DNA from: Nitrospirota bacterium
GTDB lineage: Bacteria; Nitrospirota; Thermodesulfovibrionia; Thermodesulfovibrionales; UBA6898
Assembly: GCA_021811105.1 (NCBI GenBank)
Contig: JAJZPM010000043.1
Coordinates: 1 to 34,024 of the forward strand
DNA length: 34,024 bases
Reading direction: 5' to 3'
Part shown: one piece after another, positions 15,957 to 16,575 of the stretch
How the letters are laid out: each line of letters starts with the position of its first letter
How positions within the stretch are numbered: position 1 is the stretch's first letter
Program-made: the position numbers and the translations under genes
Notes under the pieces: model-generated
What the model saw: the letters and a program-made list of their open reading frames with translations, nothing else
Database searches by the model: none
Told to the model about the DNA's origin: nothing

Positions 15957-16164
15957 TCCCGAATGCCTTCGGGATTAACCACCCTGCCTGGGATGGTGTT
16001 ACGGTGTAATTGAATAGATTTGTTATTTGAGATGTTCCCGGGTAGCTCAGTCGGCAGAGTCCCGAATGCCTTCGGGATTAACCACCCTGCCTGGGAAACA
16101 GTGTTACGGTGTAATTGAATAGAGTTGTTATTTGAGATGTTCCCGGGTAGCTCAGTCGGCAGAG
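15957..16164 (+). repeat. Tandem duplication carrying tRNA-Asn 5' halves
   Basis: Two near-identical units, 15957-16059 (103 bp) and 16060-16164 (105 bp). They differ by a small indel after TGCCTGGGA and by one substitution (ATAGATTTG versus ATAGAGTTG). Each unit begins with the hairpin TCCCGAATGCCTTCGGGA, continues with TTAACCACCCTG (identical to the 3' side of the tRNA-Asn anticodon arm), and then about 55 bases of spacer. It ends with the first 24 bases of tRNA-Asn up to GGCAGAG. In the first unit this 5' half is a dead copy; in the second it is the real start of the functional tRNA. Confidence 0.85.
16036..16059 (+). pseudogene. tRNA-Asn 5'-half copy
   Basis: These 24 bases are identical to bases 1-24 of the intact tRNA-Asn at 16141. 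The rest of the tRNA is replaced by a palindrome and then TTAACCACCCTG. The anticodon stem's 5' strand, the anticodon's first bases, the T arm and the acceptor 3' strand are missing, so it cannot fold as a tRNA. Confidence 0.8.
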
Positions 16165-16216
16165 CAGGTGGCTGTTAACCACCCTGTCGGGGGTTCGAAT
16201 CCCTCCCCGGGAGCCA
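16141..16216 (+). tRNA. tRNA-Asn (GTT anticodon), CCA encoded
   Basis: A complete cloverleaf can be drawn by eye. The acceptor TCCCGGG pairs with CCCGGGA, the D arm is GCTC/GAGC, and the anticodon arm is GGTGG-CTGTTAA-CCACC with anticodon GTT. The T arm GGGGG-TTCGAAT-CCCTC has one G-T wobble. The discriminator is G, and CCA is encoded at 16214-16216. It decodes Asn AAC/AAU. Confidence 0.96.
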
Positions 16217-16240
16217 ATTCTTTGGGGGGTCATTTCAGCA

Positions 16241-16525
16241 ATGCCGTCCTTCGTCTATATTCTTCGCAGCGAATCAACCGGTCGCTACTACGTCGGCCAT
16301 ACGGACGATTTGCCGCGCAGAATATCACGGCACAACGATCCCACCTATCACGGCTCGAAATATACTAAACGCAACCAAGGCCCCTGGACATGCGTTTTCA
16401 GCGAACAATGTGAGACTCGTTCTACGGCCGTGAACCGCGAACAAGAAATCAAGGCAAAGAAAAGCAAAAAATACATAGAGTTCCTGATTGCGGATCGGCA
16501 GAGTCCCGAAAGCTTTCGGGATTAA
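16241..16525 (+). CDS. Small GIY-YIG nuclease-family protein
   Basis: Single-domain GIY-YIG (URI-type) protein, 94 aa. It shows VYIL (residues 5-8) ten residues before YYVG (16-19), the catalytic-type Arg in LPRRISRHN, and the Glu in NREQEIKAKKSKK. Solo GIY-YIG proteins of this size are common but mostly unassigned; the fold cuts DNA in homing and repair nucleases. It starts 24 bases after the tRNA-Asn CCA, with a GGGGGG tract upstream. The last ten or so residues (ADRQSPESFRD) are not domain-derived. They translate a tRNA-like TCGGCAGAG followed by the palindrome TCCCGAAAGCTTTCGGGA, and the stop TAA is part of TTAACCACC. So the gene's 3' end is made from the same module seen upstream of the tRNA. 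Confidence 0.85.
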   Translation: MPSFVYILRSESTGRYYVGHTDDLPRRISRHNDPTYHGSKYTKRNQGPWTCVFSEQCETRSTAVNREQEIKAKKSKKYIEFLIADRQSPESFRD

Positions 16526-16575
16526 CCACCCTGCCCCGCCAGCAGGCGGGGACCCCTCCCCGGGGGCCAATTCTT
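16495..16575 (+). repeat. Third hairpin module with tRNA-Asn 3' relic
   Basis: TCGGCAGAG (16495-16503) is followed by the perfect 18-bp palindrome TCCCGAAAGCTTTCGGGA (16504-16521) and TTAACCACCCTG (16522-16533). A second hairpin comes next (CCCCGCC, loop AGCA, GGCGGGG at 16534-16551), then 16554-16575, which matches the tRNA-Asn 3' end and its immediate flank (CCCTCCCCGGG, GCCAATTCTT) with one mismatch. The second hairpin occupies the place of the T arm. The relic ends in the same trailing AATTCTT as the real tRNA, so GIY-YIG plus this relic looks like an insertion that duplicated the tRNA end. Confidence 0.75.

Follow-up and report, generated by a model that had tools for sequence, protein, structure and literature searches.

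Hairpins in place of tRNA arms and a small GIY-YIG nuclease: a minimal, probably selfish element nested in bacterial tRNA genes

In the window, i.e., the whole 34,024-nucleotide stretch of Nitrospirota DNA that was analyzed, a gene for a small GIY-YIG nuclease is found between an intact tRNA-Asn gene and a relic of the 3′ part of that tRNA, and in the partial tRNA copies around this gene, arms of the tRNA are replaced by palindromic hairpins. The best explanation is that the locus holds a minimal and probably selfish element, lodged within a tRNA gene and composed of a single-domain GIY-YIG nuclease and its cognate hairpins, which inserted with partial duplication of the tRNA; the probability of this reading is estimated to be about 0.6.

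The element is located downstream of a sigma-70-like promoter and is composed of two tandem units, the intact tRNA-Asn, the nuclease open reading frame (ORF) and the tRNA-Asn 3′ relic, in this order (Table 1). The palindrome TCCCGAAnnnnTTCGGGA is found at positions 15957, 16060 and 16504, where chance is rejected as an explanation (none of 100 shuffled sequences reached three matches), and all three copies are directly followed by TTAACCACCCTG; GGCAGAG stands before the copies at 16060 and 16504. In the intact tRNA-Asn, GGCAGAG is followed by CAGGTGGCTG (nt 25−34) and then by TTAACCACCCTG, i.e., in the modules that have the left tRNA flank, GGCAGAG-CAGGTGGCTG-TTAACC has become GGCAGAG-hairpin-TTAACC by a swap of CAGGTGGCTG for TCCCGAAnnnnTTCGGGA. 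The T arm of the 3′ relic is also swapped, for a second hairpin, CCCCGCCAGCAGGCGGGG, and the relic ends with AATTCTT at 16575. The ORF reads through a D-arm fragment and the third hairpin, and its stop codon (TAA, 16523−16525) is found in the anticodon loop of the relic, so that this hairpin is translated, as SPESFRD, to form the C-terminus of the protein. An earlier, sequence-only reading had described three palindrome-containing copies around one tRNA-Asn, two of them joined to GGCAGAG and the third forming the 3′ end of the nuclease gene and leading into a relic with the flank AATTCTT, and each of these features was recovered. Where it placed the hairpins beside the tRNA, they are instead found to replace tRNA arms, and the modules that it noted upstream are present as tandem amplifications, which bear tRNA nt 1−24 and reside between the promoter and the intact tRNA.

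Table 1. Positions of the tRNA-Asn-associated features in the window
Feature	Positions	Strand	Basis
Sigma-70-like promoter TTGACA-N18-TATAAA, drives tRNA; arrays and element downstream	15881−15910	+	Read from sequence; same promoter before intact tRNA-Asn in element-free relatives
Hairpin copy 1, TCCCGAATGCCTTCGGGA; 5′ tRNA half absent	15957−15974	+	
tRNA-Asn nt 35−46 after hairpin 1	15975−15986	+	
tRNA-Asn 5′ half, nt 1−24	16036−16059	+	
Hairpin copy 2, in place of tRNA nt 25−34	16060−16077	+	
tRNA-Asn nt 35−46 after hairpin 2	16078−16089	+	
Two tandem units, ~103−105 bp, 98% identical over 64 nt; unit 2 overlaps 5′ half of intact tRNA	15957−16164	+	
Intact tRNA-Asn (GTT)	16141−16216	+	ARAGORN; Rfam tRNA, 65.9 bits
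94-aa single-domain GIY-YIG nuclease ORF; stop TAA in relic anticodon loop	16241−16525	+	
tRNA-Asn D-arm fragment TCGGCAGAG (nt 16−24), in frame within ORF	16495−16503	+	
Hairpin copy 3, TCCCGAAAGCTTTCGGGA, in place of tRNA nt 25−34	16504−16521	+	
Relic tRNA-Asn nt 35−46	16522−16533	+	
Second hairpin CCCCGCCAGCAGGCGGGG, in place of relic T arm	16534−16551	+	
Relic tRNA 3′ end (nt 61−76 matched) and duplicated trailing flank ATTCTT	16552−16575	+	

The encoded protein matches the GIY-YIG family (Pfam PF01541, E = 1.5e-16) over residues 4−78 of 94, and the catalytic-type residues Y6, Y17, G19, R27, H31 and E67 are invariant in 11 sequences. The nearest solved structures are those of UPF0213 proteins and of the structure-specific nuclease SLX1. 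The ORF is under purifying selection (dN/dS 0.07−0.26 among related ORFs, in close pairs where measurable), and several related ORFs contain stop codons. A group I intron or IStron was rejected, since the tRNA is uninterrupted and Rfam identified tRNA but no other RNA family in the element. No integrase gene is found between the tRNA and the relic. A role of the hairpins as terminators was also rejected, no T runs being found after the hairpins inspected.

Comparison of the tRNA-Asn genes located beside nfeD in relatives revealed empty, full and remnant states at one orthologous site. The tRNA is intact and the site empty in six relatives, one of which (G002) belongs to the same genus as the window genome, while a full element is found in G000 and in G007, a genome of another genus with seven tandem 84-bp units at this locus. 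In G005, the ORF is deleted and what is left is a remnant (AAGAAGTATATTGAGTTTTTGATA, reading KKYIEFLI) together with a hairpin relic; the contig of G004 breaks off within the first of the tandem units. A truncated copy of the tRNA and ORF is found elsewhere in the G002 genome. The intact tRNA-Asn of the occupied loci in G000 and G007 is identical to that of the empty loci in G002 and G016. The sequence-only reading had named a lack of other copies or empty sites, or a locus conserved by vertical inheritance, as outcomes that would speak against a mobile element; with these patchy states, neither is what is found at the nfeD-tRNA-Asn locus. The empty, occupied and decayed states, and the copies at many tRNAs and in other phyla, lend good support to its proposal of a mini-element that targets tRNA genes and duplicates the end of the tRNA.

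The spread of the layout was surveyed in 396 genomes of Nitrospirota, in a scan of one named collection and, as an independent sample, in 198 genomes of the Bacteroidota class to which Niabella belongs. It recurs at tRNA-Asn, Ala, Asp, Ser, Val, Leu, Met, Lys and other tRNA genes, i.e., it is not a single-locus oddity, and it is found in at least ten phyla (Nitrospirota, Thermodesulfobacteriota, Myxococcota, Bacteroidota, Chlorobiota, Ignavibacteriota, Verrucomicrobiota, Planctomycetota, Armatimonadota and Omnitrophota). Two arrangements are found: a 5′ relic followed by the ORF and the intact tRNA (layout A), or the intact tRNA followed by the ORF and a 3′ relic (layout B, as in the window). 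In layout A, the ORF often stops at the tRNA’s own T8-A9-G10 or, in tRNA-Ser, at a TGA in the D loop; in ten loci the ORF overlaps the downstream intact tRNA by 10 nt, with T8-A9-G10 as the stop codon. The relics, where found, derive from the neighboring tRNA. Because the layout is also found in two isolates, Niabella ginsengisoli and Thermaurantimonas aggregans, as well as in a complete Phycisphaerales chromosome, an artefact of metagenome assembly is unlikely. A phage or plasmid vehicle was rejected as well (three weak phage matches, no plasmid match and one viral contig).

Linkage to tRNA grows with similarity to the nuclease family of the window. Among non-redundant ORFs, a same-strand tRNA adjoins 60 of the 63 that score at least 86 bits; by score band, the fractions are 37/37 (at least 100 bits), 23/26 (86−100), 17/34 in the next band and 8/36 (70−76), and at least two of the three unlinked ORFs in the 86−100 band are located at contig ends. 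In the independent sample, the nuclease is matched at E ≤ 1e-15 in nearly half of the genomes (95/198), and 28 of the 30 best matches are tRNA-linked, 26 of them with a relic of that same tRNA; the tRNAs are Phe, Asn, Arg, Met, Leu, Ala, Ser, Asp, Lys, Glu, Pro and Val. The tRNA isotype clusters on the nuclease tree (35 changes compared to 85.7 after shuffling, with none of 200 shuffles as low), where the Asn clade includes sequences from Nitrospirota, Desulfobulbaceae and Myxococcota. This tree was calculated from 87 alignment columns and many of its forks are open; therefore, counts of clustering rather than single branches are relied upon.

The hairpins are found in the relics far more often than expected. 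The non-redundant set includes 89 linked loci with a relic. A perfect stem of 6 or more is present in the relic of 70 of these loci (19.6 expected), and 45 have a hairpin of the form [TC]CCCG..CGGG[AG] (2.3 expected). The inner stem pairs vary, yet stay complementary (93% compared to 58% shuffled, and 88% compared to 35% shuffled). The stretch that is replaced is typically the anticodon arm, then the T arm and then the D arm; for the anticodon arm, the borders are at nt 24|35 (Asn), 26|44 (Ala) and 27|45 (Asp), and TCCCG hairpins are found at the same arm positions across phyla. When the four hairpin classes are mapped onto the nuclease tree, three changes are required (shuffled mean 16.5, lowest 13), and for tRNA-Ala elements considered by themselves, a single change accounts for the GTCG and TCCCG classes (shuffled 7.0, lowest 4); GTCG-N-CGAC is found at the same place in 10/10 Ala-B elements, one of which is from Myxococcota. 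In these comparisons, hairpin class goes with the nuclease rather than with the tRNA. Lineage-specific neutral palindromes alone are disfavored, because the hairpin class follows the nuclease clade. Inheritance of whole elements as blocks could make hairpin class and isotype co-vary without any recognition, but in both cases the hairpin is part of the element of the nuclease rather than of the host or of the tRNA. The simple TCCCG-type pattern is found in only 8 of the 30 best loci of the 198-genome sample, and the hairpin classes are therefore more varied in these Bacteroidota.

Variants of the relics were also observed. At a tRNA-Ala locus in G034, a hairpin is present in the 5′ relic but not in the 3′ copy, which forms a perfect repeat of 62 nt; this locus is possibly a recent insertion. 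Tandem 3′ relics with a hairpin instead of the T arm are found at two loci, in one as four copies of ~60 bp (L101) and in the other as 62-bp repeats (L172).

Amplification in tandem is seen at several levels. Modules are repeated as 7 × 84 bp (L049), 3 × 92 bp (L173) and 3 × 85 bp (L189), one genome (G587) harbors an array of ~8 × 364 bp, and at each of two loci (L120 and L127) the ORF is duplicated. In G530 (C9:905000−911500), whole elements form 10.2 repeats of 457 bp that match at 99%, i.e., ten near-identical copies composed of a tRNA-Met 3′ half, a GIY-YIG ORF and a hairpin reside beside one intact tRNA-Met. Gain, amplification and decay are in line with a selfish element. In another genome (G411), which also holds the locus L195, palindrome arrays with periods of 45 and 69 bp are found at C11:22853−23093 and in C54/C75, which are possibly further arrays of tRNA halves.

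The palindromes are also dispersed. In the host genome, 28 copies of the window palindrome are found, most of them not within tRNAs, and TCCCGAnnnnnnTCGGGA, a candidate target repeat, is found there in 34 copies compared to 0 for the control. The median copy number of TCCCGAnnnnnnTCGGGA is 4.5 in 28 genomes of the order with a linked nuclease and 0 in 106 unlinked genomes (p = 3e-8, or 4e-4 after subtraction of the element’s three own copies, both uncorrected for relatedness), and 21 genomes of other groups contain 252 copies compared to 5 for the control. Genomes rich in TCCCGAnnnnnnTCGGGA without a strongly matching tRNA-linked nuclease are also found (G288, G297 and G043, with 135, 39 and 35 copies, respectively). 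In some copies of a MITE-like repeat of the window genome (~47 matches), the TCCCG palindrome replaces GGGTGGATTCCTCCC between two hairpins, and in other copies a second palindrome, CCTGCCTACCGGCAGGCAGG, is found at another fixed place. The swap between the MITE hairpins resembles that in the tRNA, which hints at a hairpin-directed exchange.

In the proposed mechanism, the nuclease would recognize a hairpin, either its cognate one and/or arms of the tRNA, in single-stranded or cruciform DNA, and make a cut there or right next to it. The break would be repaired through the tRNA homology, by annealing or recombination, and in the course of this repair the ORF would be inserted and part of the tRNA duplicated, such that one copy keeps its function and a hairpin-bearing half is what remains of the other. 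Further rounds of breakage, with unequal exchange, would amplify the modules in tandem. The analysis establishes the architecture, its recurrence, the match of the nuclease with tRNA isotype and hairpin class, the variable occupancy of one orthologous site, the tandem amplification and the purifying selection acting on the ORF. Cleavage, the form of the DNA that is cut, the route of insertion and transposition are steps that we infer, as is the ability of the nuclease to move the hairpins or itself. A more far-reaching formulation is offered tentatively, at somewhat less than even odds: that these loci represent an undescribed, phylum-spanning mobile element, defined by the GIY-YIG domain and a clade-specific hairpin, which passes from one tRNA gene to another through hairpin-for-hairpin replacement in single-stranded or cruciform DNA and always leaves one tRNA intact.

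The abundance of the palindrome outside tRNAs may also be taken to indicate two independent processes, where an ORF once landed beside a tRNA with partial duplication, and mobile TCCCG palindromes that prefer hairpin-forming DNA later hit the unconstrained relic. The 28 copies in the host genome, the replacement of GGGTGGATTCCTCCC within one MITE family and the palindrome-rich genomes without a strong linked nuclease are all in line with this scenario, which is nevertheless considered unlikely, because at one and the same tRNA the class of hairpin still goes with the clade of the nuclease, the Ala-B hairpin is constant in position even in Myxococcota, and the same arm positions take TCCCG hairpins in different phyla.

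Slightly less probable still is classical free-standing homing of the SegB type, in which an empty tRNA gene is cut as double-stranded DNA, the gene is copied in by break repair and the hairpins serve only to block re-cutting or recombination. There is precedent in phage T4, where segB is a free-standing GIY-YIG gene in a tRNA region (PMC2988022), and in T6, where SegB drives tandem amplification, with an exchange in which the 5′ region of the tRNA and the 3′ end of segB take part (PMC13096335); empty and occupied alleles, as expected for homing, exist at the nfeD-tRNA-Asn locus. However, the occupied alleles keep an intact tRNA, i.e., the presumed target of a tRNA-cutting nuclease, and the protection that is part of classical homing is therefore missing. 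Furthermore, the GIY-YIG domain fills the ~94-aa protein, in which a separate domain for the binding of a long DNA recognition site does not fit, and the NCBIfam model for group I intron endonucleases (TIGR01453) scores 22.3 bits on the window nuclease compared to a cut-off of 56.05. Much further down in probability is a domesticated device that acts at the RNA level, where hairpin-bearing tRNA halves transcribed from the tRNA promoter would act in tRNA processing, as decoys or in defense, and the nuclease would act on RNA. The position of the modules between the promoter and the tRNA and the retention of exact tRNA 5′ halves are compatible with such a role, but presence is patchy and decay is seen at the orthologous locus, ORF and tRNA occur in both orders, and a known RNA family or defense system was rejected (tRNA alone in Rfam; no convincing PADLOC match, the best at 12.2 bits and E = 0.017).

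The preferred reading, a selfish tRNA-nested element, shares features with several known systems. We know of no family that matches the tRNA-nested, arm-replacing architecture; there are precedents for a nuclease with cognate repeats and for a GIY-YIG gene in a tRNA region. A full-text literature search, with most subscription journals outside its coverage, returned no description of a tRNA-nested nuclease element. The Ssn proteins are reportedly site-specific GIY-YIG nucleases that act on single-stranded DNA, such as Neisseria SsnA with its NTS repeats. To our knowledge, they are the only relatives with such hairpins as substrate, and are not known to be tRNA-nested or mobile. They too are small single-domain GIY-YIG proteins in genomes with dispersed repeats, which are the target in Ssn and a candidate target here, and the two nuclease families may be related. 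The Rickettsia palindromic elements (RPE) are found inside genes, where the hairpin is translated in frame, as is that of the window ORF; unlike RPE, the hairpins discussed here are restricted to partial copies of a tRNA and go together with a clade of nucleases. The TCCCG..CGGGA hairpin also resembles the Neisseria repeat dRS3, ATTCCC(N8)GGGAAT (PMC3898611).

With REP/RAYT and IS200/IS605, the element has in common a small nuclease with cognate hairpins that flank the gene and are dispersed in the genome. The likeness to REP elements and their transposase drawn in the sequence-only reading holds in that hairpin class follows nuclease clade and TCCCG palindromes are dispersed in host genomes, but not for the enzyme: the sole nuclease ORF in the unit is GIY-YIG, with no Y1 HUH transposase, and the hairpins are embedded in tRNA halves. 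Phage SegB likewise involves an intron-free GIY-YIG gene among tRNA genes and tandem amplification, which in SegB goes through repeats common to the tRNA and the nuclease 3′ end. In contrast to SegB, the element described here is found in bacterial chromosomes, has one ~94-aa domain, carries hairpins in place of tRNA arms and partial tRNA copies on both sides, and keeps an intact tRNA in the occupied allele. Integrase-borne islands at tRNA genes also leave a partial tRNA copy beside one restored, intact tRNA (PMC9897764), but the present element lacks an integrase, spans only ~300 bp in all, has hairpins for tRNA arms and has an ORF fused to tRNA sequence.

If the preferred reading is right, a widespread and apparently overlooked selfish element of ~300 bp uses tRNA genes as safe sites. 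It would account for truncated tRNA genes and for GIY-YIG proteins with tRNA-derived tails in annotations, and would provide a natural library of nuclease-hairpin-tRNA triples from which specificity can be directly read and tested. It further suggests a concrete way in which palindromic repeats could spread.
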